Shown here: positions 14,663 through 29,200 of the stretch, in pieces | Layout: each line of letters begins with the position of its first letter | Position numbering within the stretch: the stretch's first letter is position 1 | Assembly (NCBI GenBank): GCA_017302835.1 | Contig: JAFLCC010000002.1 | Location: 1 to 64,000, forward strand | Direction: 5' to 3' | Length of the DNA: 64,000 nucleotides | From: Deltaproteobacteria bacterium | Lineage (GTDB): Bacteria > Bdellovibrionota > Bdellovibrionia > Bdellovibrionales > Bdellovibrionaceae | Notes under the pieces: generated by a model | Databases searched by the model: none | Told to the model about the DNA's origin: nothing | The model's input: the letters and a program-made list of their open reading frames with translations, nothing else | Made by a program: the position numbers and the translations under genes

Positions 14663-15130
14663 TTGGCTCAGCACTTAAGAGCCAAAACTACTATTGTTCC
14701 GCTACCGGAAACCTTAGTACTTTCAATAGTTAACTGCATACCGCAGTCATTGTCAAAAGGCTTCCTCTGGCAAAAATATGTGCTCGAAATGAACTCAATA
14801 AGCCAAATTTCAAGGGAGATTTCTTCCGCCAAGGAGACCGTCAAGCGCCACCTATTGCTTTGGGATATTAAGCTAAGACCCTCTGACAACAAGCAGCGCC
14901 TTAATAAGGGACAAGTAGGGTTTGGTGAGAGGAGAATTAAAGCTCATATTGAACAGAATAAACGAGAGCTTGCGGTGGTCGAAAAAATGAAGGCTTTGCG
15001 AAGCCAAGGTTATAGCTACTGGAAAATTGCTGAAATCCTCAACTCCATGAAGGTTCCAACCAAATCACGCAAGGCAAAATGGAAGGCGGCTACAGTAATG
15101 AAAATTCTTAAGAGAACTGGAGCATTTTAG
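14663..15130 (+). CDS. recombinase-type helix-turn-helix protein lacking the catalytic domain
   Basis: The 155-residue product starts at TTG 14663. Its last 50 residues (VVEKMKALRSQGYSYWKIAE, LNSMKVPTK, ATVMKILKR) match the DNA-binding tail typical of serine-recombinase family proteins. An earlier HTH-like segment occurs at about residues 45-65 (ISQISREISSAKETVKRHLL). The resolvase catalytic domain is absent. It could be a truncated recombinase or a stand-alone regulator or directionality factor. It is the first island gene on the left, consistent with a mobile context. Confidence 0.6.
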   Translation: MAQHLRAKTTIVPLPETLVLSIVNCIPQSLSKGFLWQKYVLEMNSISQISREISSAKETVKRHLLLWDIKLRPSDNKQRLNKGQVGFGERRIKAHIEQNKRELAVVEKMKALRSQGYSYWKIAEILNSMKVPTKSRKAKWKAATVMKILKRTGAF

Positions 15131-15141
15131 TCAGCTAATAA

Positions 15142-15564
15142 TCATTCTAGCTCGTATCCTAGCAACTGAAGGCCGAGCTTAAATTTTGGCCCTAGTTGTT
15201 TTACCAAATCTTGAAGGACAGAAATTTCCGGTTCTCGGATCTTACCAGCTTCTAGCTTCAATATATGTTTGTGATCCCTGTCCACGAGTCTTGCAAGCTG
15301 CCTAACCTTCATGTCGTGTGCTATTCGATGGTGCTTAAGCAAAAATGAAACAGACAAGCTACCCCGCTGGGGTATTTCTAAAATATTAAATACCCAATCG
15401 AGACCATTTATTTTGTCTGATGGGCCTCCACTGCCAGCCCCAGCTTCGGAAACTAACTGCTTCATTAGCGCCTCTGGGACCAAGTAATGGGGTCCAGACT
15501 GCGCTACTTCTACTTTTTGAAGGTCTTCCAATTTCATAAGTCGCTTATCGGCGGCGGATTGCAT
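15142..15564 (-). CDS. XRE-family regulator of the adjacent Panacea-like module
   Basis: The C-terminal 65 residues form a helix-turn-helix (MKVRQLARLVDRDHKHILKL, then EPEISVLQDLVKQLG), preceded by about 75 residues of unknown fold. The frame extends up to an ATG at 15609, but the internal ATG at 15564 (MQSAADKRLM) would leave the operator at 15603-15615 outside the gene and is preferred. It is divergent from the Panacea-like gene. Palindromes of the form ACCCC-N3-GGGGT flank and lie within it, suggesting autoregulation and control of the neighbour. The start remains uncertain between 15564 and 15609. Confidence 0.75.
   Translation of the reverse strand: MQSAADKRLMKLEDLQKVEVAQSGPHYLVPEALMKQLVSEAGAGSGGPSDKINGLDWVFNILEIPQRGSLSVSFLLKHHRIAHDMKVRQLARLVDRDHKHILKLEAGKIREPEISVLQDLVKQLGPKFKLGLQLLGYELE
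15360..15374. promoter_or_regulatory. TACCCC-GCT-GGGGTA palindrome inside the XRE gene
   Basis: A perfect 6-3-6 palindrome, matching the promoter-region site at 15603-15615 in its ACCCC and GGGGT arms. A half site (TACCCCAATGG) lies at 15570-15580. Together they look like binding sites of the local regulator. Confidence 0.55.
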
Positions 15565-15602
15565 CACAATACCCCAATGGTCCTCTTTTATTGGAAATCT
15601 AG

Positions 15603-15615
15603 ACCCCAATGGGGT
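15603..15615. promoter_or_regulatory. ACCCC-AAT-GGGGT operator between divergent genes
   Basis: A perfect 5-3-5 palindrome 24 bases upstream of the Panacea-like ATG (15640) and upstream of the preferred XRE start. Its sequence recurs at 15360 and, as a half site, at 15570. Position and recurrence suggest repression of both genes by the XRE protein. Confidence 0.6.
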
Positions 15616-15639
15616 ATCATTTGGCTTGGGAGAAGAAAT

Positions 15640-16194
15640 ATGGAATTGACACGATCAATTCGAGACGCATTCGGCTGGCCTAAGGACGATAAAAATTGTA
15701 AAGAAGAAGTCGAATTCTGTCGAAAAGATATAGAGATGAACGAGAATAATTTGGTCTTACTTTTAGGAAGCCTTGAGAAGGGTAGTTTTTCAGGAGCAGT
15801 TAAGCTCGTGAAGGCAATTTTTCTTGCGCAGTCAGAGGCAAAACATAAAGGTCTTACTGGAAATTTTTCGTACAATTTTTATCGTTGGGATTATGGCCCC
15901 TTCGATTCAGCGATTTACAAAGACTTGGAATCGCTTCGATCAAAAGGTCTTTTGCAAATCAATCAAGAATATACTCCCTATCTTGAAAAGACTTATGCTC
16001 TTACTGAAGCTGGCCAGAAGCAGTTCAAGAAAGTAAAGGCAGAAGTAGATACGACGTTTGGAACAATAGTTTCCAAGTGGGCAAATAAAGTAAATCAGAT
16101 GAGACGAGATGATGTACTTAAATTTGTCTATGACAAATCAAACGTCAAATCATACGAAATGGGAGATAAGGTGAATCTCCCAGATGTCGATTAG
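15640..16194 (+). CDS. Panacea/SocA-like (DUF4065) antitoxin-type protein
   Basis: The start is ATG 15640 with GGAG at 15630; the frame is open further upstream but crosses the divergent gene. The 184-residue product contains the SocA/Panacea pattern: VKLVKAIFLAQSEAKHKG, then FSYNFYRWDYGPFDSAIYKD, ESLRSKGLLQI and YALTEAGQKQFKK. Proteins of this domain act as antitoxins or proteolytic adaptors, and Panacea antitoxins are known to pair with many unrelated toxins, including membrane-active ones. The gene overlaps the next, a large membrane protein, by 11 bases, as expected of an antitoxin/toxin or sensor/effector pair. The partner's large size is unusual for that class. Confidence 0.75.
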   Translation: MELTRSIRDAFGWPKDDKNCKEEVEFCRKDIEMNENNLVLLLGSLEKGSFSGAVKLVKAIFLAQSEAKHKGLTGNFSYNFYRWDYGPFDSAIYKDLESLRSKGLLQINQEYTPYLEKTYALTEAGQKQFKKVKAEVDTTFGTIVSKWANKVNQMRRDDVLKFVYDKSNVKSYEMGDKVNLPDVD

Positions 16195-18112
16195 TCCCGA
16201 AGAAATCCAAACAATCACACTTGCAATAAAGGTGTTGGCAGGACTCGCTCTTATTGCCGTATCAATTTTCTGCTCTGGTTGGATAGAGAAAAAGTTTAGC
16301 TTCGTGTATCGCTCCAACGGTGATGATGCGATTCCAGAGCCTGAGTCATGGAGATATTTCGGAGTTAGAGTTCTAGTCGATTCTGTTTTGGTCTTATTCG
16401 GCCTTTTTCTTATTTATAGCGGACATCAAATTCCATGTTCATTTCTTACCACAATAGACAAAGACCTTGTTAGTACGCTTTTCCAGTCGATTGCTGGAAT
16501 TTTAGCAATCACAGTTTCTGGGCTTTTATTGGTTACGCAGCTTTCGTCAGAAAAATATTCTTCAGTAACAGTCCACCGTTTTCAATCACATGGAACTATT
16601 CATTCAATTTTAAGGATTCAAATTATTGCCTTAATTTCGAGTGGATACTCACTTCTTACGATACAAAATGTAAACGATCACACGATCTTTTCCGCAAATA
16701 TTATGGCGGCCTCATTGCTGTTTGGTGCTCTCAGCATTCTAGCTCTGCCACCGCTTCTCTCAATAACAATACTGCAGCTAAGACCTCGAGGACTCATTAA
16801 GTGGTCGGCATTACTAGCTAAAGAGCAAATCAAAACTCTTCCCACATATTCCAGTAAAAAAAATAAGAGCCGTCTTCGATGGGAAATGGTCGTTCTACAT
16901 GAATGTTTACAAAGTCTAAGATTTATTGGAGTAAGTGCAACGAAAGATCAAGATGATGAAATCGTAGAGCGAGTTCTCGGTGCGTTTCGAGATATTTTGG
17001 AGTTCTATTTTTTGACTATCTCTGATTATAGAGGAGGCTCTTCTGTAGAACGTAGTTTCAGAACGCTTTGGGATACGACTTTGGCTGAAAGGTTTGTCTT
17101 TAATTACGACCTAACATCAGCTCTGGGAGAATCTGAAAATCAGGATAGCAAGTGGCTATACTGGATTGAGAACAATATTCTCAGAAGTGTTGCTTCAATG
17201 TTGGAGGCATCTGTTCAAACAGGGGGCGAATCAAATCAAAAGATTCGACTTTTCTATGAAAGCTGGTCTGACCTGATGAAAAATAGGGGTGCAAATACAC
17301 AGGTTGAGTATCCACTTATACTGCAAATGGTTTGCTCAGATCTGCTTGTCACCTACAGAAGCTGCCTTACTGACAGTATTGAATCTCAAAGCGAACTTTT
17401 AGACTTCTTTCATGGGCGCATCGAAAAAATTCTTTCTATTTGCTTCCCCGAATCGGCTGAAGAAATTCCTCGTGAACGACAGGTTCGTCAGGTGACTAAA
17501 TTTTTAAAACAAGTGGGTGAACTGGTTATTCGTACACAAGGGGGCCATCCTTTACAAAAATGGCTTTTTATAATTGATCGTCTGCGAAATTCCTTAAAAC
17601 AGAAGGACTCTGGAAATTTAGTCGGTATTATTATTGAGGAATCATTCGCAAGAAGCTACTTCGATTTATTCCTATTTGCTTTGCTTTCCAAAAAGCATGA
17701 TTCCGCAAAAATTATTCTCCAATACATTTGTTTCAATGAGCCAATTCAGTTTATTGAACAAGTATTTGCTCAATCTGCAAAAGTGATGAATTCAGCATTT
17801 AGTGGCGAAGGAAGAGCTCCTGATAACACCTATGTTCGTTATGACAAATATATGTACTCTGTTTCAAAGACACTATTGTTGATTGTCGTTTATCGAAGAT
17901 ACCTAGAAGATCAATCTTTGGTTGATGATAAATTGAATTGGCAAAAATGTCTGGCTACTTTCAAAACGGTAGATTGTTTCAACGATATTCGATCGAAATC
18001 ACTTCCACATTTGAAAACTGAAATACTGCATTATTCGAATGACCGCCTTGAGCTTTGTCCAGAAAAATCATTTGATTCTTATATAGACGAGGCTTGGAGT
18101 GTTCTTTGTTAG
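16184..18112 (+). CDS. large membrane protein, putative effector partner of the Panacea-like protein
   Basis: The 642-residue product has five predicted membrane segments in its first 200 residues (about 12-31, 57-76, 93-115, 136-158, 166-195), then about 440 residues without membrane helices. The segment TLFQSIAGILAITVSGLLLV followed by TQLSSEKYSSVTVHRFQSH resembles DUF2254-type membrane proteins, but the long C-terminal part does not look like that family. No enzyme motif was recognised. The ATG overlaps the Panacea-like gene by 11 bases. A defence or toxin role (membrane damage on phage infection) is inference from context. It converges with the small gene at 18109 with a four-base overlap. 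Confidence 0.7.
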   Translation: MSISPEEIQTITLAIKVLAGLALIAVSIFCSGWIEKKFSFVYRSNGDDAIPEPESWRYFGVRVLVDSVLVLFGLFLIYSGHQIPCSFLTTIDKDLVSTLFQSIAGILAITVSGLLLVTQLSSEKYSSVTVHRFQSHGTIHSILRIQIIALISSGYSLLTIQNVNDHTIFSANIMAASLLFGALSILALPPLLSITILQLRPRGLIKWSALLAKEQIKTLPTYSSKKNKSRLRWEMVVLHECLQSLRFIGVSATKDQDDEIVERVLGAFRDILEFYFLTISDYRGGSSVERSFRTLWDTTLAERFVFNYDLTSALGESENQDSKWLYWIENNILRSVASMLEASVQTGGESNQKIRLFYESWSDLMKNRGANTQVEYPLILQMVCSDLLVTYRSCLTDSIESQSELLDFFHGRIEKILSICFPESAEEIPRERQVRQVTKFLKQVGELVIRTQGGHPLQKWLFIIDRLRNSLKQKDSGNLVGIIIEESFARSYFDLFLFALLSKKHDSAKIILQYICFNEPIQFIEQVFAQSAKVMNSAFSGEGRAPDNTYVRYDKYMYSVSKTLLLIVVYRRYLEDQSLVDDKLNWQKCLATFKTVDCFNDIRSKSLPHLKTEILHYSNDRLELCPEKSFDSYIDEAWSVLC

Positions 18113-18336
18113 CCTTCTTGCTTTTTCAAAAAGGCTCCCACTGACGCTCTAAGGGTATTATTTTGCAAAACTCCAACGACACTGATCTGATATTTCGGAG
18201 CATCATACATTGGAAACAGCACTTTAAATCGCTCAATGAAATGCGACTCAAGCTGTTCTTTTGACCACTCGCTTGGTTTTTCAATTAAAACTTCAACTTC
18301 TTGAGTGAAAACAGGATTTGCTTCGACTTTTGACAT
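18109..18336 (-). CDS. small protein of unknown function
   Basis: The 75-residue product (MSKVEANPVFTQEVEVLIEK) has a strong Shine-Dalgarno (GAGAGGTAATTC) before ATG 18336, so it is probably real. It is soluble, with one central amphipathic helix (EWSKEQLESHFIERFK). No family recognised. It is downstream of, and in the same direction as, the nuclease gene at 18409 with a 72-base gap, and converges on the membrane-protein gene. It may be an accessory protein of the nuclease. Confidence 0.65.
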   Translation of the reverse strand: MSKVEANPVFTQEVEVLIEKPSEWSKEQLESHFIERFKVLFPMYDAPKYQISVVGVLQNNTLRASVGAFLKKQEG

Positions 18337-18408
18337 GAATTACCTCTCAAGTTCAGTTTATGATCTAATTATCCAGATCCTTTAAGTTGAACTTGGAGTC
18401 CTGAAGTT

Positions 18409-19551
18409 CTATGAGACTTTTTCAAATCCCAAGCCGCCGAAGACCTTCAACAAAGTAATTCCGTGCTCTCGACAAATCTCCGCCATCTCCTCATCCACAT
18501 AATCAGTTACGATCATAAATGATAGATTTTTAGTTGGCCTCAATCCAAAAGATGAATACTTAATTTCCAAATCTGAAAGGTTTTTTCTAGCCCAAGTCGT
18601 ATAACGAAGAAACTGATCGTATCCAGATTTCTTATCTCGTTTTCTTGTCTTTACTTCAATAATGACAAGATCTTTGGTCTCCTTGTTCATTGCAAGCAAA
18701 TCGAGTCTACCAAACTTGCCATCACTCCAAATTGCATTAGGTTGTCGATCAATAATTTGAAGATTATCAGCAACTTTATGGATATTTTCTTCAAGCCACA
18801 TCTCGAGAAACTTTTCTGACGAAAAAAGATAGTCGGCATTGAGTATCTTTTGGTACTGCTCCTTATACTCTTTCAAATTTATGACCTCTTGCTGAAGGTC
18901 AATTACTGTCTCTTGAAGCGAGATTACACGATCCATCAGTTGGCTATTGTGCTGACTGGAACAAATATCGTCTTTTTCCAAACTAGTTTTAATTGTGGAT
19001 TCTGAGCACTTGAAGTCGGCACCATTAGATTGTGATTCTTTGTCTTTAGAGTCACAAATCTTTTTGTTAGATCCCAATACAAATAAATTCGCTGGATCTG
19101 GCGAACCTTTCAAAATCACATACCTCAAAGCTGACTGTCCAGGGACCTTTGGAGTTGCTCCTGCCTTGAAAGTTAGCGGTCTAATGTCTTCTAATAGAAA
19201 GGCCACAGCTAGTTCGGTGTCACGATAATATGAAGGAATAAGTTCACGATTCCTTGGGTTGCCTATGTAGATGTCTTTTAAAGTAGCGAAATGCCAAAGA
19301 TTACCATCTTCACAAATAGACTTGGGAACTGCTGTTGCGTAAAGAAAAACATATGTTTTAATTCCGGCAGCAAGTTGCCTTTTCAATGTCTCGGCTTTTT
19401 CAGGCCCGATGCTGTTTACACGGCCCCACCATACTGAACTTTTTTGCTCTATTACTTTTAGATGTTCTTGCATGGTTTCAATGGAATTATCTTCACGATT
19501 CCAGGCAAAGAATTGATATTTAATAACAAGGTGTAGATCATTGCTCATCAA
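18409..19551 (-). CDS. putative defence endonuclease with PD-(D/E)XK (NucS/DUF91-like) domain
   Basis: The 380-residue product has three parts. The N-terminal domain, about residues 1-150, includes SSVWWGRVNSIG, TYVFLYATAVP and FATLKDIYIGNPRNRELIPS. A linker with a coiled coil follows at about 205-240 (DRVISLQETVIDLQQEVINL). The C-terminal nuclease carries Asp284 (FGRLDLLAM), Glu299 and Lys301 (LVIIEVKT) and Gln313 in YDQFLRY, the expected PD-(D/E)XK layout of NucS-type enzymes. The N-terminal domain resembles no named family for certain, but its WW and later aromatic motifs look like a nucleic-acid or modified-base recognition module. It probably cuts invading DNA. Confidence 0.75.
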   Translation of the reverse strand: MMSNDLHLVIKYQFFAWNREDNSIETMQEHLKVIEQKSSVWWGRVNSIGPEKAETLKRQLAAGIKTYVFLYATAVPKSICEDGNLWHFATLKDIYIGNPRNRELIPSYYRDTELAVAFLLEDIRPLTFKAGATPKVPGQSALRYVILKGSPDPANLFVLGSNKKICDSKDKESQSNGADFKCSESTIKTSLEKDDICSSQHNSQLMDRVISLQETVIDLQQEVINLKEYKEQYQKILNADYLFSSEKFLEMWLEENIHKVADNLQIIDRQPNAIWSDGKFGRLDLLAMNKETKDLVIIEVKTRKRDKKSGYDQFLRYTTWARKNLSDLEIKYSSFGLRPTKNLSFMIVTDYVDEEMAEICREHGITLLKVFGGLGFEKVS

Positions 19552-19684
19552 CTATTCATCGGATTTCTGTATGAGAAGTTAACAGGACTTTTGACTTATA
19601 GTTCATTGATCAAAATGAAACTTGTCACGTTAACTAAGCTCCTTTGGTATTTGATCTTGCACCCAAGATTATACTGAAAGGTGA

Positions 19685-19816
19685 TTAAAACCGAATCGGT
19701 TTCAGGCAATTTGGAAGGTGTGCGTCCAACATAAACTGCAATATTGTTCTTCAACTTCAGTTGATCAGGTGAACCACCTCGTGTGCCATGACATATTCCA
19801 AATATTGAAGTGGCTT
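19685..19816 (-). pseudogene. fragment of a YgjP/M48-type metallopeptidase gene
   Basis: On the minus strand one frame reads KPLQYLEYVMAHEVVHLIN, two stop codons around a Ser, then RTILQFMLDAHLPNCLKPIRF. This matches the zinc-binding YVxxHExxHL core and the following LPxWKxxR segment of YgjP-like metal-dependent hydrolases. Those enzymes are often encoded beside type I restriction systems. Nothing else of the gene is recognisable and two in-frame stops are present, so it is a dead remnant. Confidence 0.6.
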
Positions 19817-19827
19817 ATGCGTTTAGA

Positions 19828-20142
19828 CTATTGAAACTCTCCACACATTGACCGCACATCTTTAAATCTGACGGTCTTTTTCACTTCGGAAAATGGAAAT
19901 TCGCATGTTTTTTTATTTACCACGTTAGCTGTTTCGACTGTAAGCTTTTCTACTATGCAACGGCAGACAGATTCAATTTTTTCATTGTTCGTTTTGCCAC
20001 CAAATGAATCGTAGTATTGCATTCCAGCCATTTTGCAATTCTGAAAAAAGCTAGATTGAATCTCTGATGTCGAACACTTTGCGAAAGCATTTGTCTCACA
20101 AAGAAGAAATGTAAGTATAAGTAGAATGTTAATTTTCAGCAT
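19828..20142 (-). CDS. small secreted six-cysteine protein
   Basis: The probable start is the ATG at 20142 (MLKINILLILTFLLCETNAF), giving a signal peptide and a mature domain of about 80 residues with Cys spaced C-12-C-23-C-1-C-17-C-19-C. The same spacing (with 15 instead of 17) occurs in the C-terminal half of the protein at 20854-21489, so the two share a domain. The Cys pairs are likely disulfides in the periplasm or outside the cell. It is the last gene of a four-gene minus-strand operon headed by an XRE regulator. I do not recognise the domain. Confidence 0.75.
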   Translation of the reverse strand: MLKINILLILTFLLCETNAFAKCSTSEIQSSFFQNCKMAGMQYYDSFGGKTNNEKIESVCRCIVEKLTVETANVVNKKTCEFPFSEVKKTVRFKDVRSMCGEFQ

Positions 20143-20158
20143 TTTACATCTCATTTCT

Positions 20159-20839
20159 TTATTGGAATGCATCACCAATTGCACTATCTTTGATACACGA
20201 CCAGTTTGTAAGTTGTGGGGTAATATCAGCATTGGAAATTGCACTGTCGTGATATGTCCACATCGCTGGCGGCAAGAAGTTAAGTAGCCGCAATGAACTT
20301 ATTGAATTGCCAGCCAAGTCATAGAAGTTATGCACATAATATGTCGAAGCATTGTTTGGCCGAACAAAATCGAAGTATGCTCTGCCCTCAGAGGTCGGCG
20401 AGTTCACTGAGACAGAACATCGACCAACAACACCTCCACCACTTTGGACATAGTTGCCAACCCAATACTTGTATTTTGGAATGTCTGTTCCGTTTGAATA
20501 TGTCATGGCGAAACCTACGCATTTGCCACCACCCGATAGATAGTCTGTTTTGAAGACACTCCATCGTTCTTGGTCGGGACGGTAGACTGATATACAGGTT
20601 TGCGTGCAGTATTCCATTTTTGGAGTGCAAACAAGGATAGCGTCTTCAGTGCCGTCAATCGGCGTGACCCCATCCAAGCGAACAAGCCTATAAGAAGCAG
20701 ACGATTTTGATACTGCATTCATTGAACTATTGAAGCCCGTGGGACTTGTGATTGAATTGGAGGTTGAGCTTTCTGAACCATTCTCGTTACACGAGCACAT
20801 GCAGAGCGAAAGTAAAACGATCAACCATTTTGAATACAT
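20159..20839 (-). CDS. putative lipoprotein of unknown function
   Basis: The ATG at 20839 (MYSKWLIVLLSLCMCSC) follows AGGAGGAAAGA directly and is the likely start; the open frame extends 11 codons further. The leader ends in a Cys-rich stretch, with M-C-S-C a possible lipobox. The mature part (about 210 residues) is rich in Ser, Asn, Tyr and Gly with several Cys and looks beta-stranded and extracytoplasmic. It lies between the two six-cysteine genes, overlapping neither domain, and is probably co-transcribed. No family recognised. Confidence 0.7.
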   Translation of the reverse strand: MYSKWLIVLLSLCMCSCNENGSESSTSNSITSPTGFNSSMNAVSKSSASYRLVRLDGVTPIDGTEDAILVCTPKMEYCTQTCISVYRPDQERWSVFKTDYLSGGGKCVGFAMTYSNGTDIPKYKYWVGNYVQSGGGVVGRCSVSVNSPTSEGRAYFDFVRPNNASTYYVHNFYDLAGNSISSLRLLNFLPPAMWTYHDSAISNADITPQLTNWSCIKDSAIGDAFQ

Positions 20840-20853
20840 TCTTTCCTCCTGCC

Positions 20854-21489
20854 CTATCTTCCCTGCACGCACATGACATATACAGGTCGGGACTTCAAAA
20901 GTTGAAATGCGTCCTCAGTTTTAAATTTGCAAGAGTCACCTGGGATAAGTTTCTTTAAATCAAAGTTGTCCTCTACACATTTACAAACGACCCTAAAACT
21001 GTTTAGCATGTGAGGTATTCCTAACGATCTAAGATGTAGACCGTTTAGATTCATACACGAGTGTTCAAAATTCTTTTTTAGGTTAGCTGCATCACATTTC
21101 AAGTCAGCGACAGGGGGCGGATTGCCAACAACAATTGGGATCATCACAGAATCTGTTGAGTCTTTTTGACTCGATGGAAACTTTGCATTTTCCAAGATGG
21201 CTGCGACGCAATCGTTGGCCTTATCGTTTGGCAGGGGAAAGCCATTGAACATTATTGCCCTTGCTTTGCCTTTTGTTGTGATTTGAAATTCAATACTATA
21301 GCGAAGAGACTGGTCGGACTTACATTTTTCAAACTGATTTTTAATGACATTCAATGATCGTCTTACAGCTTCTCGATCAAATTGACCCTTGAAGACAATT
21401 CCACTTTCATCAATGTTAAAATGAAAGTCTTCCGCATAGGAACTTGAAGAAAGCAGCAAAATAGTCAAAGTTAAAAAAATGTATTTCAT
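20854..21489 (-). CDS. secreted protein: TonB/AgmX-like domain plus six-cysteine domain
   Basis: A 211-residue product with a signal peptide (cleavage after SYA near residue 19). Residues about 35-120 (FDREAVRRSLNVIKNQFEKC, then YSIEFQITTKGKARAI) follow the pattern of the AgmX/PglI or TonB C-terminal domain of delta-proteobacteria. The C-terminal 80 residues carry Cys in the pattern C-12-C-23-C-1-C-15-C-19-C, shared with the small protein at 19828. The ATG overlaps the stop of the XRE gene (ATGA), so translation is coupled. It probably acts in the periplasm; its role is unknown. Confidence 0.7.
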   Translation of the reverse strand: MKYIFLTLTILLLSSSSYAEDFHFNIDESGIVFKGQFDREAVRRSLNVIKNQFEKCKSDQSLRYSIEFQITTKGKARAIMFNGFPLPNDKANDCVAAILENAKFPSSQKDSTDSVMIPIVVGNPPPVADLKCDAANLKKNFEHSCMNLNGLHLRSLGIPHMLNSFRVVCKCVEDNFDLKKLIPGDSCKFKTEDAFQLLKSRPVYVMCVQGR

Positions 21490-21803
21490 TTTTCTTCACC
21501 CTCACCATCAGGAATTGCTCTTTCTATTTTAACCTTCATCCAACCACTGAAAAGCTGTTCTGTTTTAAGTCCGTTGAGAGATTTCGTACCGGACGGCTTT
21601 CCTGTTAATAAATAGTCTGTGCTCACCTGAAAGAACTCACCAAGCTTTAAAACGTGATCCAACTGATAAGTTGCCTTTTTGCCCGCAAAGTATGTTGAAA
21701 GTGTTGAATGAGGAATTCCAACGGCTTTGGATAGATCCTTTATATTTAAGCCTCGCTCGTCAGCCAGACGTTTTAGAATTTCATGTATCTTCAACTTGCT
21801 CAT
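21486..21803 (-). CDS. XRE-family regulator heading the six-cysteine operon
   Basis: The probable start is ATG 21803 (MSKLKIHEIL); the open frame allows an upstream ATG at 21821. Residues about 5-65 are a standard HTH (IKDLSKAVGIPHSTLSTYFA) followed by LGEFFQVSTDYLLTG, as in Cro/C1-type repressors. Its stop overlaps the next start by four bases. An imperfect 15-base inverted repeat lies immediately upstream (21816-21853) and is likely its own operator. It probably represses the secreted-protein operon and perhaps the divergent island genes. Confidence 0.85.
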   Translation of the reverse strand: MSKLKIHEILKRLADERGLNIKDLSKAVGIPHSTLSTYFAGKKATYQLDHVLKLGEFFQVSTDYLLTGKPSGTKSLNGLKTEQLFSGWMKVKIERAIPDGEGEEK

Positions 21804-21815
21804 ACTCCCTTTATC

Positions 21816-21853
21816 GGTCATAAATGCATGGAATGGTTCATGTATTTATGATC
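21816..21853. promoter_or_regulatory. inverted repeat upstream of the XRE gene
   Basis: GGTCATAAATGCATG (21816-21830) pairs with CATGTATTTATGATC (21839-21853) with two mismatches, around an 8-base spacer. It covers the start region of the XRE gene and is a probable autoregulatory operator. Confidence 0.6.
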
Positions 21854-22022
21854 GTGTGATATATGTTTACGATCTAAGATTGAAATAAAGGCCAAGCTGT
21901 TAAGTCCTTATAAAGAGTAGAACTTACGCCATCTCAAAACTGCATCGTGTTGAGCCAATCTACGATCATAGAATTAAATATCTACGAAGACCTCCTCTGA
22001 TTATCTCATCTTACGCAATGCA

Positions 22023-22062
22023 GTATTGAAAATCAATACAAAATCGTATGCAATATCAATAC
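22023..22062. promoter_or_regulatory. two GTATTGA-N3-TCAATAC operators upstream of the RHH gene
   Basis: The first site (22023-22039) is a perfect 7-3-7 palindrome GTATTGA-AAA-TCAATAC. The second (22046-22062, GTATGCA-ATA-TCAATAC) has the same spacing with two changes in one arm. The two centres are 23 bases apart, about two helical turns. A third perfect copy lies at 22306-22322. They are likely binding sites of the ribbon-helix-helix protein encoded just downstream. Confidence 0.75.
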
Positions 22063-22080
22063 AAGACTGGAGTCAATTAA

Positions 22081-22296
22081 ATGAAGAAATCAAAGATATG
22101 GGAACTAACAGTAAAGCTACCTCATCCATCAGCTATGCCTAAAGGTGATACCGATCCCTTGTCTACTCGTATACCCACTTCTGTAAAAGCATTCCTTGAA
22201 AAAGAAGCTAAATCTGCAGACTTATCTCTTAGCAGTCTCGCTGCCAATGTACTTATTGGATATGCTCAGGCACTTGGGTACAAAGGTGAGACATAG
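22081..22296 (+). CDS. ribbon-helix-helix DNA-binding protein
   Basis: The 71-residue product has a ribbon-helix-helix pattern: the strand STRIPTSVKAFLEKEAK, helix, then LSLSSLAANVLIGYAQAL. This is like small Arc/CopG-type repressors of mobile elements. Operator-like palindromes lie before it (22023-22062) and after it (22306-22322), which suggests it controls itself and the RepA-like ATPase. Start ATG 22081. Confidence 0.75.
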   Translation: MKKSKIWELTVKLPHPSAMPKGDTDPLSTRIPTSVKAFLEKEAKSADLSLSSLAANVLIGYAQALGYKGET

Positions 22297-22305
22297 TTTT
22301 CAGTT

Positions 22306-22322
22306 GTATTGATTTTCAATAC
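22306..22322. promoter_or_regulatory. third GTATTGA-N3-TCAATAC operator before the RepA-like gene
   Basis: A perfect palindrome with spacer TTT, ten bases upstream of the RepA-like ATG and ten bases after the RHH stop. Identical arms to the site at 22023-22039. Confidence 0.75.
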
Positions 22323-22332
22323 ATTTTGAGGC

Positions 22333-23127
22333 ATGATTGTATCTATGGAAGATTCAAACGCCTTAAGTAAAATAAAGATATTCCGAGGTTCAGAGATTAA
22401 ATCAGAATCCTCGAAAAGCAGATGGTTGATTCACTCTCTTTTGCCAGCATCAAGTTGTGTATTTCTCCTCGCTGAGCCGAAAGTTGGGAAATCATTCGCT
22501 GCACTTGAAATGGCTCTATCAGTTGTTTCTGGTAACAAATGCTTTCAACAAAACCAAGTAATGCAAATAGGTCCAGTGGCTATTTTTAGCGCCGAAGATG
22601 CGCCATGGATTATTGCTGAACGACTTGAAGGAATCGCTAGATCAAAAGGTTGTTCCAATTTCGATTTGGAGAACCTCCATATTATTGACCGATCGAATGG
22701 GATTTTTCTCGATGAAGAAGAGTCCTTTGCTCGATTGCGTTCAGCACTATTAGAAATCGGCCCGAAGCTAGTTATTTTAGATCCCTTAGCTCAGATACTC
22801 TGCAAAACCCAAGAGTCCAATGCACGACAGATGGCAGATGTATTGAGAAAAGTTCGCAATCTTCAAACAGAACTTGATTGCACCATCCTAATCACGCACC
22901 ACGTTCGCAAAGATGGTAAGGGCAGCATCAACGCTCGCACTAGAGGCTCATCATTAATCGCTAGTTTTTGGGATGGCTGCCTTCTTATGGAAAAATCATT
23001 CAACGGCATTGTTCGTATAGAGTCGTCATGGAAGGGATTTCCGACCTCACCTGAGTCCTTCATCAAGCTTCAAAACCACAATGGTGGCTACGGTCCGATA
23101 GGAATTGGAATTGAGGAAGGAGCTTAA
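22333..23127 (+). CDS. RepA-like AAA/RecA-fold ATPase of the island
   Basis: The 264-residue product has Walker A at about residues 47-56 (AEPKVGKSFA), an IFSAEDAPWIIAERL motif, Walker B LVILDPLAQIL with Asp150, and a later TILITHHVRKDGKGS motif. This set defines the RepA/RSF1010-type hexameric helicase group found on plasmids and integrative elements. It is shorter than many homologues but complete through the core. An operator palindrome is close upstream. It could help the element replicate or partition. ATG 22333 is close to its GAGG, and the ATG at 22345 is an alternative. Confidence 0.82.
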   Translation: MIVSMEDSNALSKIKIFRGSEIKSESSKSRWLIHSLLPASSCVFLLAEPKVGKSFAALEMALSVVSGNKCFQQNQVMQIGPVAIFSAEDAPWIIAERLEGIARSKGCSNFDLENLHIIDRSNGIFLDEEESFARLRSALLEIGPKLVILDPLAQILCKTQESNARQMADVLRKVRNLQTELDCTILITHHVRKDGKGSINARTRGSSLIASFWDGCLLMEKSFNGIVRIESSWKGFPTSPESFIKLQNHNGGYGPIGIGIEEGA

Positions 23128-23264
23128 TGAAATACTTGACTGAATCAGTCCCTTTTATTTTTAAACTCTACAAAAAAAATTATGGATCTATCCAGTTAGT
23201 ACCCATTTGTGACTCCAATCGACCTCATTAGATTTTAGCCCCCCATCCTTTAAAGGAGGATTTT

Positions 23265-23861
23265 TTGAAATGTGCAATTTACGCAAGATGCTCAACTTCA
23301 ACAAAAGATCAAAATCCTGATTTGCAGGTCTCCAGGATTAAATCGTTCGTTAGTCACAAGGGCTGGAAGATTACAGAAGAAATTGTAGATCACGGATTCA
23401 CAGGCTCAAATGATAATAGACCTGGCTTTCATAAACTGATGGAACTGGCTCGATCCAAACAAATCGACGCAATCGTCATCACTAAGTTTGATCGACTCTT
23501 TAGAAGTCTAAAAATGCTTCTCTCGACGCTCGAAGAACTGAATCAGCTAGGAATAATATTCGTGGCGGTGGATGACAACATTGACTACAGCAGCGCAAGT
23601 GGTCGCCTGATGCTTCAAATTCTTGGAAGCCTCTCTGAATTCTACAATGCCCTACTGAAAGAGCGCACGATCCAGGGACTTGAATATGCTCGAAACGTAA
23701 AAGGTAAGCGCCTTGGTGCTCCTGAGAAATTCAACAAAGAACTAATTCTGCAACTTGGTGAACAAGGGAAGTCCTATGTTGAAATTGCCAGACTAATGAA
23801 ATGCTCAAAATCGACAGTGGGGCGTATTCTTCAAAGACGAGTCCAACAATGGCAAAAATAG
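23265..23861 (+). CDS. small serine recombinase (resolvase/invertase family)
   Basis: TTG 23265 follows a strong AAAGGAGG. The 198-residue product has the catalytic Ser10 in YARCSTS, then VDHGFTGSNDNRPGFHKLME, AIVITKFDRLFRSLKMLLS and an HTH at the C-terminus (SYVEIARLMKCSKSTVGRIL). This is the full layout of Tn3-type resolvases and invertases. It probably resolves element multimers or inverts DNA; crossover sites were not found. It is distinct from the large integrase at 27396. Confidence 0.92.
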   Translation: MKCAIYARCSTSTKDQNPDLQVSRIKSFVSHKGWKITEEIVDHGFTGSNDNRPGFHKLMELARSKQIDAIVITKFDRLFRSLKMLLSTLEELNQLGIIFVAVDDNIDYSSASGRLMLQILGSLSEFYNALLKERTIQGLEYARNVKGKRLGAPEKFNKELILQLGEQGKSYVEIARLMKCSKSTVGRILQRRVQQWQK

Positions 23862-23921
23862 CAGTTATTGGAATTCCAGGTGACGAACGTATAATGGACA
23901 AAAATGAAAGGTGGGCAAATT

Positions 23922-24155
23922 GTGAAATCCGAAAAGACTGAGGCTTTATGGCTGGCTATAGTTGACATCATAAGGCTATCTCCAGCACAAGCGTCTGCCT
24001 TAGAACTGGAATCACTAGCATACCTATTACTCACGATTTTAGATTACGAAATCTCACCAGACTCTCTTGTCGTCATCTACCATTCTGCTGTTGAGGGTGA
24101 AAATTTAGAGTGGCTAATTGATCGTCTTGAGCACAAAAAACCGAAAGCATCTTAG
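23922..24155 (+). CDS. small protein of unknown function
   Basis: GTG 23922 is preferred over ATG 23904 because AAGGTGG (23909-23915) is seven bases upstream. The 77-residue product is acidic and helical (EALWLAIVDIIRLSPAQASA, then LAYLLLTILDYEISP). No family recognised. It follows the resolvase by 60 bases in the same direction. Confidence 0.55.
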   Translation: MKSEKTEALWLAIVDIIRLSPAQASALELESLAYLLLTILDYEISPDSLVVIYHSAVEGENLEWLIDRLEHKKPKAS

Positions 24156-24367
24156 GTTCAGTTGCGTCAAACCTTCCGCTACTTGGGGTGATTCTTTCCG
24201 GTTGCATAATTTTCTTCGCAAACCAGATGCCCGTGTACGTTCAAGGATTAGTTGTAGCGAATTCGCAGGAATGGCTGAACCCTGCTAAGCGTGCAGATGT
24301 CTGGTGATCAAAACTGCCTTGCCGTATAATTGCGAGGCTATCACTTTGAATTCAGACAAAATCAAAA

Positions 24368-24586
24368 CTACACGTTTTCCTGCTGAAGTTTCAAAATATG
24401 CTCAAGCTCTTTCTTGCGCCTTTCCAGATACTGTTTATGCTTTCTCGGCCAACTGCGCAGATAGAAGTTTTCAATAATAAAATCGAGCAATTGATTGGCT
24501 GGCTTACCAAGAGCATTGGACATTCTGTCCAAATATTCTTTGGATTGTAGGTCTAGGGTGGTCGTAAACTTTATCTTCTTTGCCAT
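24368..24586 (-). CDS. CopG/Arc-like ribbon-helix-helix protein
   Basis: The 72-residue product begins with the strand-like KIKFTTTLDLQSKEYLDRMS, then helix NQLLDFIIENFYL, typical of small RHH repressors, with a basic C-terminal helix. It is separate from the polymerase-like operon by about 220 bases. It could be a copy-control or TA-type regulator, but no partner is next to it. Confidence 0.7.
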   Translation of the reverse strand: MAKKIKFTTTLDLQSKEYLDRMSNALGKPANQLLDFIIENFYLRSWPRKHKQYLERRKKELEHILKLQQENV

Positions 24587-24731
24587 ATTGAATTTACCTT
24601 GATTGCCATAATCTAAAGAGCAATCTTATATGGCTTTAGAATACCATTATTGAAAGATTATTTTTTTCTAAAAAAAAGAAATGTCTAGCTATCCGCTGAG
24701 ACGTGGAAAACTCATTGTTAAGTATGCAGAA

Positions 24732-24796
24732 AGGAGGAAGGCTATCGACACTCCAGAGTCGTGTCTTTACTTCTCTTCGTTCAGCCGCCTTCTCCT
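24732..24796. repeat. imperfect long hairpin downstream of the polymerase-like gene
   Basis: AGGAGGAAGGC (24732-24742) pairs with GCCTTCTCCT (24787-24796) with one bulge, and GACAC (24747-24751) pairs with GTGTC (24761-24765) inside. It ends just before the 3' end of the polymerase-like gene (24804), so it could be its terminator or a structured control RNA. Confidence 0.55.
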
Positions 24797-24803
24797 ATAC
24801 TGT

Positions 24804-26180
24804 TCAAAATAAGGAATCATCTTTTTTCTTTGAGATATTGGGAACTTGTACTTTTCTCTTCTGCTCCTGAATCTTAGAAAGAACCGTGATCCATGCATCT
24901 ATCATTGTTTGCTGTAGTAAGTTTTCATCCTCTTCCTTAACTATAAAAGAATCATGCTTCGGGATTATCGGTTTATTTAGTTGAGCGAATCTGTCAACTA
25001 CCTCAAGACAAATATCAGATTCAACTTTCATAAGACGAAGGCCTGCGCCACTGAAGAAGTATTCAGCTATTGGCTCATGTCGTCTTGTTATCTCTGCAAT
25101 CACATCTGGAATTGAAATTCCAAGATCAGTTTTGTATTTGATGCCCTGATCAGCAAACTCTTTTCCAATAGCTTGAGCGGCGGCTTTGCGTGAATCTGCA
25201 TTGAGTATTATATTCGTGAATGCCTTGCCTAGTTTTCGCTTTAAATCTGGATCTTGAATTGATCTCAAGGTGTTGAGGATATACACGTCCTTGCTTGGCA
25301 TTGGAGTACCTTTGATTGCGTAAGCAATAGCAGTATGTGTTGAAGAGTAATCAAGCTCCACTGTTGGCCGATCATCTATTAGCAAATCTCGGACAAACTT
25401 CTTCTTCCAGTTCTGAATAGATCCTCCTTCAGAGTAAATCCGCCCATGCTTGGAGTAATCAGGACTAAAACTCCGATAGAACCTAGGTGCTTCAATTGAA
25501 ACAGTTCTTATATTGAATTTTGACCTTTGCAGAACGCTGTCCAATTTATCTAGAACTTGAATTGTTCTTACAACGTCAGGTCTGTCAGCCTCTAAATCAT
25601 AATAAATCCTAGAGTCGTTTTTATCAGTCTCATAGACGATAGCTCTAATTGCTGATTGCCCTGCTGGCTTTGATCGCCTAATGAAGAGTTCGTTTCCACT
25701 TTTGGTTGCCATTCGCTTAAAGAGGTCAAAGTCTGAAGTGGGTAAATAAAGGGACAGCGATGAGTTTTTTTTATTTTTCTTGTTATGGAATCCCCGACGC
25801 AAGAGTTTGACGAACCCTATGTTTTTATCACAAAACTCTTTCAAAACCGCCTTCATAATATAAGCAGTTATTTGTTTCGGGTTTGGTCTTGTCCTTTTCT
25901 TATAAAAGTCCTCTCGGTGGCCTATTGCTATAGGCAGTTCTTGGAGAACAGACTCAGTGAGATTAGCAAGCAAACAGTTTAGAGCTGTAATGTACTTTTT
26001 ATTCCGATTCCTGGGCTTAACGCCTGTTCGAGCTTTGGCTTTAAGCTTTGTTCGATTGGCTTCATTGACCATCATTTGAATATCAACAAAAAGATTGCCT
26101 TCGACGTGTGAGTCGAGACGCAAAGTAATCATATCTGAACGCTTTAGTTTTCTACTCCCTTTTTGTGATTTTGATTCCAT
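24804..26180 (-). CDS. polymerase-like replication protein with family-A/T7-type palm motifs
   Basis: The 458-residue product has the three palm motifs of the polymerase A / T7 RNA polymerase superfamily in the C-terminal half. A motif-A-like VELDYSSTHTA carries Asp277. A motif-B-like segment is RKLGKAFTNIILNAD (about 315-329). Motif C is PKHDSFIV with His409-Asp410. A segment GRIYSEGGSIQNWKKKFVRD precedes motif A, like the template-binding region of related uncharacterised plasmid proteins. The N-terminal 200 residues are basic and unknown. It shares an operon with an HTH gene 24 bases upstream. It may be the element's own replication polymerase or primase; this is inferred from motifs. Confidence 0.7.
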   Translation of the reverse strand: MESKSQKGSRKLKRSDMITLRLDSHVEGNLFVDIQMMVNEANRTKLKAKARTGVKPRNRNKKYITALNCLLANLTESVLQELPIAIGHREDFYKKRTRPNPKQITAYIMKAVLKEFCDKNIGFVKLLRRGFHNKKNKKNSSLSLYLPTSDFDLFKRMATKSGNELFIRRSKPAGQSAIRAIVYETDKNDSRIYYDLEADRPDVVRTIQVLDKLDSVLQRSKFNIRTVSIEAPRFYRSFSPDYSKHGRIYSEGGSIQNWKKKFVRDLLIDDRPTVELDYSSTHTAIAYAIKGTPMPSKDVYILNTLRSIQDPDLKRKLGKAFTNIILNADSRKAAAQAIGKEFADQGIKYKTDLGISIPDVIAEITRRHEPIAEYFFSGAGLRLMKVESDICLEVVDRFAQLNKPIIPKHDSFIVKEEDENLLQQTMIDAWITVLSKIQEQKRKVQVPNISKKKDDSLF

Positions 26181-26204
26181 AAATCATTCTCTTGATAAAT
26201 TTAG

Positions 26205-26810
26205 TCATCTATTTCTTAATTTTTTAAGCGACCTTGCGCCTCTGTCAGTCGATAATGAACTTTTCCGTTCAAGCTTAATCAACCACCCTCGCTTTTCAAT
26301 TTCTTGAATTAGATCATCTAAGCTTGCAGAACCTAACTCATCTTTAGAAGATAAGTGTTGTTCTGCAACGCCCTTATCTGTTGATAGCCGCTGCCTCATG
26401 CTGGCGTTCTCTTCCATTTTGATTTCGCCCTTGGATAAGTACAAAAGGGTCACCGGAACTTTAAAGGTGTTCATTTGCACTCTCACCGCCTCCAGGTTTT
26501 CGTCAGAGGGCTTTGATTCAACGTAGAGGTGCTCACCTCTATTGAAGAAATCCTTCACCCTGAAATCGAGAGTCTTGTTGCTTTCGCCTCTAATCGTCGG
26601 GTTGGCTTCAATCTCATATCCGCCAAATTTATTGAGGACCAATAAATGTCCGAGTTTATCTGAAGGTATAATTCCCTTTGATTGCCACTTATAGAATCCA
26701 GCGTGAGAGACATTAAACAGTCGCTCTAGCTCCATACCTTTCAGCCCTGTGGCATCGAACAATTGCCTTAACTTTTCAGTGCCGATGAAAACCATATTCC
26801 CTTTCGCCAT
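26205..26810 (-). CDS. helix-turn-helix protein upstream of the polymerase-like gene
   Basis: The 201-residue product has an HTH at about residues 13-55 (LFDATGLKGMELERLFNVSH, then AGFYKWQSKGIIPSDKLGHL), followed by a middle domain of about 80 residues and a charged tail. The start has a good Shine-Dalgarno (AGAGGAG TTT ATG). It is 24 bases upstream of the polymerase-like gene in the same direction and probably regulates or assists it. Outside the HTH I recognise no family. Confidence 0.7.
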   Translation of the reverse strand: MAKGNMVFIGTEKLRQLFDATGLKGMELERLFNVSHAGFYKWQSKGIIPSDKLGHLLVLNKFGGYEIEANPTIRGESNKTLDFRVKDFFNRGEHLYVESKPSDENLEAVRVQMNTFKVPVTLLYLSKGEIKMEENASMRQRLSTDKGVAEQHLSSKDELGSASLDDLIQEIEKRGWLIKLERKSSLSTDRGARSLKKLRNR

Positions 26811-26945
26811 AAACTCCTCTTTCCAGCTACTGAAAGTTTACTCGTTATTTACTTTAAAATCAATAATATGGCTTTGACGTGTATTGTTTTGAGAAATGTC
26901 TACCGTAAATTTGCTTTTCGACCTTATGCACAATAAAATAGTTAT

Positions 26946-27080
26946 ATGAGTAAACAACTGGTTGTCAAAAATACAAATTTGACTGGTCGGCTAGAAGGTG
27001 CCGAACTCGACCTATGCTTGGGGTTGGACCATTGCCCTCGTTGTTATCTCATAGGCATTAGGCGTTTGGTGGATCTCTAA
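26946..27080 (+). CDS. 44-residue microprotein with CPRC motif
   Basis: ATG 26946 opens a short frame (MSKQLVVKNTNLTGRLEGAE) with LCLGLDHCPRCYLIGIR near its end. The Cys-x-x-Cys suggests a zinc knuckle. Its stop overlaps the next start (TAATG), so it is translationally coupled to the zinc-finger gene and through it to the integrase. Confidence 0.5.
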   Translation: MSKQLVVKNTNLTGRLEGAELDLCLGLDHCPRCYLIGIRRLVDL

Positions 27081-27412
27081 TGGAGCTGTTGAGTGGCTCC
27101 GCTCAGGAAATCCTAGTCAAAGCTGAATCGGAAAAATCCGAATCGGTAAAGACATGCACCTGCTGTGGGAAGGCTAAGTCACTTAGAAGCTTCCACAAAA
27201 ACCGCTCAAAAGCTCTTGGTGTCGAATCAGCGTGCAAGGTCTGCGTTCGTAAACAGAAAAAGAAAATACGCCAGAAAGCGAAAAGGAAAAGGCTAAGTAC
27301 CATCTCATTCACATCGGCTGTCGTTGGTGAACTTGGTGAAGATACTGAAAAAAGTTTTGTGGAATCATATTCAGAAATAATAAGGGACTTACATTATGAC
27401 AAAAAAATCTGA
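27080..27412 (+). CDS. small zinc-finger protein coupled to the integrase
   Basis: The 110-residue product contains CTCCGKAKSLRSFHKNRSKA and a second ACKVCVRKQKKK, that is two Cys-x-x-Cys pairs about 27 residues apart with intervening basic residues. This layout is common in phage and element-encoded HNH-like zinc ribbons. It overlaps the preceding microprotein start-to-stop and the integrase by 17 bases, so the three are one cassette. It may be a recombination directionality factor or DNA-binding accessory; that is inference from position. Confidence 0.65.
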   Translation: MELLSGSAQEILVKAESEKSESVKTCTCCGKAKSLRSFHKNRSKALGVESACKVCVRKQKKKIRQKAKRKRLSTISFTSAVVGELGEDTEKSFVESYSEIIRDLHYDKKI

Positions 27413-29189
27413 ACTTTCAAAGGCTACACAAAAGAGACTTCTCATCGAGAAAATCGTAGAAGACTGTCGTATTGTCATTGCCAACTATCAGGCCAACTGG
27501 AGGCCCCAGAATAAAGAATGGCAGACAATCGAAGGATGTGCTTACCTACGCCTGTCCACAGAGGACCAAGTAACAATTGAAAAAGGCTCCCTAGAGCAGC
27601 AAGTAAATATCGCTATAAGCGAAGCCGAAATTCGTAGTCAAGCAGAGCAAGTAAACTATAAAATCACGGAGTTTTTCATTGAGCCAGGGTTAACAGGTCG
27701 AAACGACGACCGACCTGAGTTCAAGCGGATGAGTTATGAAATCAAAAAGAAAATGTTTCGATTTGTTGTCATCAAAGAAATATCTCGGATAGCGAGAGAC
27801 GCAACTATTTGGGAATCCTTTTTTCGCCTCTGTACGAATAATGAATGTGAAATTGTCATCCGAAGTTTTCCATTCAACCCGAACGACCCATCCCAACTTT
27901 TTCAACTCAGAATTTTATCGGCTTTTGCACAATATGAATCAGAACAAACATCAAAACGTGTCAAAGAGAGCAATTTTTCAGCGATGATTAACTCTGGAAA
28001 ATTCAACTCCACTCATCCTGTTTTAGGGCTAGATCAACGCAAAGTCGGAAGCGAAAGGAAGGTTGGCTTTTATACACCTAACAGAGAGGAGTTAAAAACC
28101 GTCGAATGGATTATGAGAACTTTCATCAAACTCGGATCGTTTCAAAAAACTCTTGAGGAGTGCAACGCAAAGGGAATTTTGAACAAGCATGGCGAGAAGT
28201 TCAAAAAGCACAGTCTCCACACATTGCTAACGAATAAGAAATATGTTGGACTCTGGCAGGTCAACGTGGACAACAAAGATAAAAACCAAAAGAAGCTTAT
28301 GCCGTACGAAAAATACGAAGAGGTTGAGCTGCCTCATGGGTGTGTCGTTGAGAGGAAGCTTTGGGACGAAGTTCAACAAACAATTGAAAAAGTTTCTAGC
28401 GATAAAATCAAAAACACCAAGGTTACAAAAATCTACCTGCTTTCAGGACTCTTGAAGAACAAGGATGGGGAGCCCCTTTCCGGTAGAAGTGGTGTCGGTC
28501 AGCACAATAAAGAACGGTATCATTACTATGGCGGCCCAGGAGTTAGAAACATTGGTGCGAAGGTTTTGGAAGACGAAGCCTTCAAGATTGTTAAAGACAT
28601 CATCAGCAAAAATACTCGCCTTAAAGATGCCATAAAAAGAAGGATTTCAGACTTGAACAGTCGCAATGACCTTCTAAAAAGCGAATCACAGAAAATCAAA
28701 GATAAGATTTCATTTCTAAACGATGAGAAAAGTTCTCTTAAAAAATCATTGATTCAAATTACGAAGGGCGCAACGGAGAAAGAAATCAAAGAAATTCGTG
28801 ATGAGTTTATGAGAAACATTGCCGAAAAGAACCATGAGATTCAGGCTCTGGAGCAAAATCTAAAAAATATAGGAGAGTCTATTGAGCAAGGCGAAAAAGA
28901 TGGTTTTGATTGGGAACATGTTACTGAGAGCGCAGAGAAAATTCAAAGACTGATAGCGGAAAATGATCCTGTCTCATTGAGAACAGCATATCAAAAATTA
29001 TTCAAGGAAATCATTGTTGGCGAATTGGATGATAACGGGAATCGGCCACTTCAATTCGTGCTACGAGGAGACGACCTATTCGATTCTGTTAATCGGGCGG
29101 CTCATAGTAGCGTTGGAATAAAAATGGCTCAGGAGGAGGGACTCGAACCCCCGACCAAGCGGTTAACAGCCGCTTGCTCTACCAACTGA
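27396..29189 (+). CDS. large serine integrase of the island
   Basis: The 597-residue product has a 45-residue N-terminal extension, then the catalytic domain with Ser54 in YLRLSTEDQ, FIEPGLTGRNDDRPEFKRM, and FVVIKEISRIARDATIWESF. The recombinase domain follows (TVEWIMRTFIKLGSFQKTL, GILNKHGEKFKKHSLHTLLT), and a long coiled coil lies at about 420-500. In most large serine recombinases the segment after LLSGLL is a Cys zinc ribbon; here (LKNKDGEPLSGRSG) the Cys residues are missing. The gene runs into the 3' end of the tRNA-Asn gene on the other strand, which supplies its last 20 or so codons and its stop. It is the enzyme most likely to insert and excise the island. Confidence 0.93.
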   Translation: MTKKSELSKATQKRLLIEKIVEDCRIVIANYQANWRPQNKEWQTIEGCAYLRLSTEDQVTIEKGSLEQQVNIAISEAEIRSQAEQVNYKITEFFIEPGLTGRNDDRPEFKRMSYEIKKKMFRFVVIKEISRIARDATIWESFFRLCTNNECEIVIRSFPFNPNDPSQLFQLRILSAFAQYESEQTSKRVKESNFSAMINSGKFNSTHPVLGLDQRKVGSERKVGFYTPNREELKTVEWIMRTFIKLGSFQKTLEECNAKGILNKHGEKFKKHSLHTLLTNKKYVGLWQVNVDNKDKNQKKLMPYEKYEEVELPHGCVVERKLWDEVQQTIEKVSSDKIKNTKVTKIYLLSGLLKNKDGEPLSGRSGVGQHNKERYHYYGGPGVRNIGAKVLEDEAFKIVKDIISKNTRLKDAIKRRISDLNSRNDLLKSESQKIKDKISFLNDEKSSLKKSLIQITKGATEKEIKEIRDEFMRNIAEKNHEIQALEQNLKNIGESIEQGEKDGFDWEHVTESAEKIQRLIAENDPVSLRTAYQKLFKEIIVGELDDNGNRPLQFVLRGDDLFDSVNRAAHSSVGIKMAQEEGLEPPTKRLTAACSTN

Positions 29190-29200
29190 GCTACTCCTGA
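29125..29200 (-). tRNA. tRNA-Asn (anticodon GTT)
   Basis: On the minus strand the sequence folds as a complete cloverleaf. The acceptor arms are TCAGGAG and CTCCTGA, the D-arm is GCTCAGTTGGTAGAGC, the anticodon stem is AGCGG/CCGCT around loop CTGTTAA, and the T-arm contains GGTTCGAGTCC. A discriminator G and encoded CCA are followed by five Ts. The anticodon is GTT (Asn). The integrase gene overlaps its 3' end on the other strand, marking this as the island's insertion site. Confidence 0.95.

Follow-up and report, generated by a model that had tools for sequence, protein, structure and literature searches.

Minimal polymerases of transposons and viruses were described under the name TV-Pol by Iyer, Abhiman and Aravind in 2008 (PMC2579912). 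They combine an Arg-hairpin, a two-Asp palm, fingers with an Asp and an RxxxK signature, and a bi-helical coiled-coil thumb; from their context, next to resolvases or integrases, they were predicted to be primase-polymerases, and they were proposed to resemble the ancestor of Pol I and the T7 RNA polymerases (PMC2579912). CcPol of SCCmec, the only TV-Pol to have been characterised biochemically to the knowledge of the authors of the 2020 SCCmec study, belongs to family A; together with its partner MP it was shown to prime DNA, for which its two catalytic aspartates are needed (PMC7581432). Paired with an OB-fold protein, it uses dNTPs for priming (PMC7581432, PMC10061031), and it retains E710 and F762, the Pol I determinants of dNTP selectivity (PMC7581432). 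A 2024 paper describes divPolA2 proteins of barbaviruses, Vibrio phages and other phages, which have a palm and lack an exonuclease, and whose N-terminal domain is unique; their gene neighbourhoods are variable, they coexist with the barbavirus replicative DNA polymerase, and a function as repair polymerase or RNA polymerase was suggested (PMC11348598).

Here we analyse a stretch of 64,000 nucleotides from a member of the Bdellovibrionaceae (contig JAFLCC010000002.1; hereafter the window), which carries a further member of this described family, as its place in phrog_4756, its homology to divPolA2 and its core TV-Pol features indicate. With moderate confidence, we predict that the product of this gene is a minimal A-superfamily polymerase of the TV-Pol/divPolA2 kind, serving as the primase-polymerase of the integrative island on which it resides. 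We know of no measured activity for any member of its subfamily.

Catalytic core of the polymerase

The polymerase gene (24804-26180, minus strand) encodes 458 residues counted from an ATG. An initial annotation of this DNA had placed the reading frame and motifs A, B and C exactly and in the right order: VELDYSSTHTA (D277) is motif A, RKLGKAFTNIILNAD belongs to the fingers and PKHDSFIV (H409-D410) is motif C. It had overlooked a conserved hairpin, GRxYS...Q (residues 246-256), which corresponds to GRLSS...NLQN of Pol I.

Across an alignment of 110 proteins, the window's included, the polymerase-A catalytic set (R247, D277, R315/K319, H409-D410) is invariant or nearly so. In the Arg-hairpin G246-R247-I-Y249...Q256 (25413-25445, minus strand), R247 is conserved in 100% of the sequences, G246 in 99% and Y249 in 96%. 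Motif A, V274-E-L-D277-Y-S-S-T-H282 (25329-25361, minus strand), has its catalytic Asp D277 in 100% and a His at the steric gate, H282, in 80%; in motif B, the fingers helix R315xxxK319xxxN323xxxN327 (25200-25238, minus strand), K319 reaches 100%, R315 98% and N327 88%; in motif C, P407-K-H409-D410-S-F-I-V (24939-24962, minus strand), H409 and D410 reach 100% and S411 98%. Y300 (98%) and D298 (93%) are also conserved. Asp277 and Asp410, on whose conservation among homologues the initial annotation had made its polymerase reading depend, are present in all 110.

When a profile of 82 homologues was aligned to bacterial Pol I by hhalign (E = 8e-6), R247, Q256, D277, R315, K319 and H409-D410 were paired with the GR, NLQN, D(YSQ), R, K and HD of Pol I. 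In E. coli Pol I numbering we take D277 to be D705, R315 to be R754, K319 to be K758 and H409-D410 to be H881-D882. Judged from these alignments, the catalytic motifs of the 458-residue protein are not a product of chance, and the near-absolute conservation of the catalytic positions argues against a dead enzyme.

In the same alignment to Pol I, the steric-gate Glu710 is replaced by His282, Phe762 by Asn323 and Tyr766 by Asn327, and Glu occupies position 282 in none of the 110 sequences. Because both Pol I determinants of dNTP selectivity are replaced, the use of ribonucleotides by the window polymerase is possible; His282 could also serve as a bulky steric gate. At positions 282/327, 86 sequences have His/Asn and 10 have Asn/Gln. 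Asn282 is invariably paired with Gln327, and since the 10 carriers come mainly from one clade (SAR116), this pairing may go back to one single event. The SAR116 loci with Asn and Gln at the steric-gate and Tyr766 positions are L090, L091, L092, L094, L101, L102, L106, L108, L117 and L122.

Predicted structure

AlphaFold2, given 82 sequences, models the window polymerase with a mean pLDDT of 84.7 and a pTM of 0.85, the palm and fingers lying mostly at 90-98. The palm domain that the initial annotation had claimed, and which it would have given up had a predicted fold lacked it, is present in this model: the palm/fingers catalytic domain (residues 169-454; 24819-25676, minus strand) gives VIA-align Z scores of 13-15.7 to mitochondrial RNA polymerase, family-A DNA polymerases and T7 RNA polymerase (yeast mitochondrial RNA polymerase 15.7, apicoplast DNA polymerase 15.0, Bst Pol I 14.2, T7 RNA polymerase 14.2). 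Because rows no more than 1 Z apart are counted as ties, the modelled fold does not separate a DNA from an RNA polymerase. In a Foldseek search of viral models (BFVD), phage homologues came out on top, the Barba31A protein among them (E = 1.3e-20).

The structural matches mostly cover only about residues 169-454, and Pfam, profile and structure searches found no exonuclease domain in the N-terminal 168 residues, which bears out the absence of an exonuclease noted at the outset. A classical thumb was not recognised in the window polymerase; in the model, one helix (201-218) precedes the hairpin and long helices lie at 29-80 N-terminally, and no clear coiled-coil pair could be made out. Strands 234-238 and 246-250 are predicted to form a beta-hairpin before the palm, which holds the invariant R247.

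The N-terminal domain (residues 25-165; 25686-26108, minus strand) is likely winged-helix-like, to judge from its model and profile matches. Folded alone it reaches a pLDDT of 82 (AlphaFold2), and its matches are mostly winged helices, among them replication terminator protein, PadR, MarR and HlyU, each of them individually weak (Foldseek E >= 0.18, VIA-align Z <= 6.2). In the profile search PadR ranked first (1xma, E = 0.003), alongside other winged-helix profiles.

Relatives and their neighbourhoods

The window polymerase falls into phrog_4756 (residues 60-435, E = 1.4e-55 in PHROGs), a family of 'unknown function' to which all 82 of its scanned relatives also belong; the initial annotation had not recognised that this family was already described. 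Pfam, NCBIfam, PADLOC and PDB sequence searches returned no informative family for it. By tblastn, 260 phage records and three plasmid records were matched, the phages being those of Vibrio (ICP1 included), Rheinheimera (115 phages, barbaviruses), Aeromonas, Pseudoalteromonas and Shewanella. With the window protein as the only query, viral and genome contigs gave no matches, and a 12-sequence alignment was too divergent as a seed; narrower alignments recovered a further 34 viral and 80 bacterial loci, mostly from alphaproteobacteria, with one Bdellovibrionaceae genome (UBA6776). Clear homologues occur in Paracoccus, Loktanella and Methylobacterium, three genera that the published TV-Pol list includes, and a few family members match phage RNA polymerase PHROGs. 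The position of the window polymerase among the phage copies in the tree has weak support (0.54), and nothing is built on it.

Class-wide, 144 genomes yielded a strong full-length match only in the window's own genome and in one other of the same order, which suggests a host from the Bdellovibrionota and a sporadic, mobile distribution. The seven weak matches in this search were ordinary DNA polymerase I genes and point independently to homology.

Ma-LMM01 gp030, presumably that phage's TV-Pol, was picked out by a motif search and has the hairpin, D-x4-H and K-x7-N motifs in common with the window family. The match is one of motifs, with an E of 0.0092 in a single-pair hhalign, and HMMER found no match to the family profile in Ma-LMM01. 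No broader TV-Pol profile could be drawn from gp030, because its relatives are more than 90% identical, except for one 94-residue fragment at 84%.

A site-specific recombinase lies within 6 kb of the homologue at 48 of the 80 bacterial loci (of the serine type in 12 of the 48). Recombinases recur among the neighbours whereas repair genes do not, and phmmer and Pfam searches of the 80 loci showed no recurring RepA-like or D5-like helicase. In ICP1 the homologue (ORF100) is present besides the phage's own DNA polymerase gp58 and primase-helicase gp57. ORF100 (NC_015157, 53113-54780; 38114-39781 of locus L016), annotated as hypothetical, is itself a member of the polymerase family; a Mom-like modification gene lies near it, and another lies near the relative in phage VnaP (L017). 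Large open reading frames near the relatives in L124, L058 and L128 have no recognisable domain. The one in L124 (5602-7455; Bdellovibrionaceae UBA6776), of 618 aa, ends at the start of the polymerase homologue and is possibly its partner.

The island and its cargo

The polymerase gene is carried by an island of 14.46 kb (about 14,658-29,132) inserted in the 3' end of a tRNA-Asn gene, delimited by att sites and represented by an uninterrupted, empty site in five congeners. On the left, attL, TAAAATTGGCTCAG (14658-14671), agrees with attR and with the flank next to the tRNA in a congener, and window positions 14619-14671 match the tRNA-flanking left DNA of one congener (terminator hairpin and TTGGCTCAG). 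On the right, attR, TAAAAATGGCTCAG (29119-29132), lies at the 3' end of the tRNA-Asn(GTT) gene that served as integration site (29125-29200, minus strand); homology to the five congeners begins at 29120-29122 and extends rightwards over the tRNA-Asn region. The shared core of the att repeat is too short for a repeat search and was recovered by comparison with the congeners.

A large serine recombinase, the integrase (27396-29189, plus strand; Resolvase and Recombinase domains), reads into the tRNA-Asn gene and matches the NCBIfam CcrB model at E = 6e-23, below that model's cut-off. The island also encodes a small serine resolvase (23265-23861, plus strand; Resolvase E = 1e-38) and a hexameric helicase ATPase resembling RSF1010 RepA (22333-23127, plus strand; AAA_25 E = 2.9e-29, RepA 1g8y E = 3.6e-7). 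Upstream of the helicase, an RHH-like small protein (22081-22296, plus strand) is flanked by 19-nt perfect inverted repeats, GTATTGAAAATCAATACAA (22023-22041 and 22304-22322), which are possibly an operator or a replication-control site. A CI-like HTH protein of 201 aa (26205-26810, minus strand; Phage_CI_repr E = 5.6e-4) is encoded 24 bp upstream of the polymerase gene on the same strand, and might be a co-transcribed regulator or a partner of the polymerase; an endonuclease-VII-like protein at 27080 is also part of the cargo. Polymerase and helicase are encoded on opposite strands and do not form one operon, and Pfam and PHROGs profiles found no match to an OB-fold SSB partner among the neighbours of the polymerase.

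Discussion

That a palm polymerase is used by the element, as the initial annotation had it, is supported, whereas the three functions it listed are unevenly so. A compact replicative polymerase for the whole element is the less likely, because phage relatives coexist with a replicative DNA polymerase of the phage (gp58 in ICP1; barbaviruses). A primase-polymerase is the best supported, because the same role was proposed earlier for TV-Pols and agrees with the presence of a RepA-like helicase on the island. We favour it because of the invariant catalytic residues, the modelled palm and the N-terminal winged-helix signal; because of the recombinases adjoining its relatives, the borders and empty sites of the island and the helicase encoded there; and because TV-Pols were predicted to be primase-polymerases (PMC2579912) and CcPol-MP was shown to prime (PMC7581432).

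We infer a cycle in which the large serine recombinase would excise the island and the hexameric helicase would open the excised circle; the winged-helix domain would bind DNA and guide the polymerase to its template, where primers and short strands would be made by two-metal chemistry at D277 and D410. Host enzymes would finish replication, and the small resolvase might resolve multimers. Against this stand the opposite strands of polymerase and helicase, the lack of an identified SSB-like partner of the CcPol-MP type, and the phage relatives beside full replication systems, which are equally compatible with an accessory role. Since phmmer found no RepA-like helicase near the relatives, the pairing with a helicase may be confined to this island.

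With TV-Pols, the window polymerase has in common a minimal core of palm, fingers and Arg-hairpin, the two catalytic Asp, RxxxK, the conserved fingers Asp (D298), the absence of a nuclease domain, an extra N-terminal domain (in TV-Pols, in a subset only) and carriage by mobile elements with serine recombinases or integrases. It differs in that the helicase of its island is RepA-like (RecA fold) and not D5-like, and in an N-terminal domain that looks winged-helix, whereas that of TV-PolN was predicted to be all-helical. With divPolA2, to which it is homologous (the Barba31A protein and the 115 Rheinheimera phages above), it shares its size, a palm with catalytic residues, the absence of an exonuclease and an N-terminal domain in place of the thumb; divPolA2 is phage-borne, whereas the island of the window polymerase is a bacterial integrative one that also encodes a helicase and a serine recombinase. 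On the core features and the gp030 motifs, the two names would cover one family, a link that the available text of the 2024 paper does not state (PMC11348598). The phage divPolA2 proteins would thereby be tied to TV-Pol features and bacterial islands, in a family that is widespread (phages including ICP1, alphaproteobacterial islands) yet has no Pfam name.

The CcPol-MP and PolA-SSB primases of SCCmec-like elements offer a parallel: there too, a family-A polymerase is carried by an island with a large serine recombinase and a replicative helicase (PMC7581432, PMC10061031). The window island, in contrast, has no match to an SSB/OB partner and a RepA-like rather than a COG3378/DUF927 helicase, and its polymerase has His282 and Asn323 where CcPol keeps E710 and F762. 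With Pol I and the T7 and mitochondrial RNA polymerases it shares the palm/fingers fold and catalytic residues; it departs from Pol I in lacking exonuclease domains, a recognised thumb and the Glu710 gate, and from the RNA polymerases in that no promoter-recognition domain was recognised. The family has a shared active-site signature, with His and Asn at the positions of the Pol I steric gate and of the neighbouring tyrosine, and a likely winged-helix-like N-terminus. A bolder version of the primase-polymerase reading, which we hold to be rather unlikely, is that the enzyme would not exclude ribonucleotides (Glu710 to His, Phe762 to Asn/Leu, Tyr766 to Asn), would be aimed at an origin by its winged helix and would replace a RepB'-type primase. 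If true, a serine-recombinase island would carry an RSF1010-like helicase-primase pair whose primase is an origin-specific intermediate between Pol I and T7-type RNA polymerase.

Alternatively, the enzyme could be an accessory DNA polymerase for repair or gap filling, recruited by the island and the phages to tolerate damage or process ends, and not for priming. The gene of ICP1 beside gp58 and gp57, the variable neighbourhoods, the same suggestion in PMC11348598 and the missing exonuclease all fit; however, recombinases and not repair genes recur nearby, and the Pol I selectivity residues E710, F762 and Y766 are all replaced. We regard this reading as improbable. Somewhat more doubtful still is a single-subunit RNA polymerase that would start from promoters of the island or of a phage, recognised through its winged-helix domain, and produce transcripts or RNA primers. 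Mitochondrial RNA polymerase is the best structural match (Z 15.7, with T7 RNA polymerase at 14.2), but family-A DNA polymerases, at about 15, are level with it. In motif C the window polymerase has HDS like T7 RNA polymerase, against HDE in Pol I, and a few members match the RNA polymerase PHROGs; the loss of the gate Glu, to His in 80% of homologues, points the same way, although a bulky gate could still be formed by His. Neither a promoter-binding nor a specificity-loop domain of the T7 type was recognised, and the Tyr common to Pol I (766) and T7 RNA polymerase (639) is Asn in the window polymerase. A catalytically silent or regulatory palm protein, or a defence-system part, is very improbable: the family is functionally unannotated and the island protein at 18409-19551 has weak candidate-defence matches, but all catalytic positions are near-absolutely conserved, the polymerase has no PADLOC match and phages carry the gene too.

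Other cargo of the island deserves mention. At attL, a 155-aa open reading frame (14663-15130, plus strand) holds part of the 'Recombinase' domain of a large serine recombinase and may be left over from an element that formerly occupied this tRNA site. The protein at 18409-19551 (minus strand; 380 aa) has a Pua-like match besides its weak PADLOC candidate-defence matches (PDC-S11, PDC-S18) and is possibly nuclease-type defence cargo. A protein with a near-threshold Panacea/SocA antitoxin-like match (15487-16194, plus strand) is followed by an overlapping 642-aa membrane-type protein (16184-18112), and the two are possibly a toxin-antitoxin-like pair.
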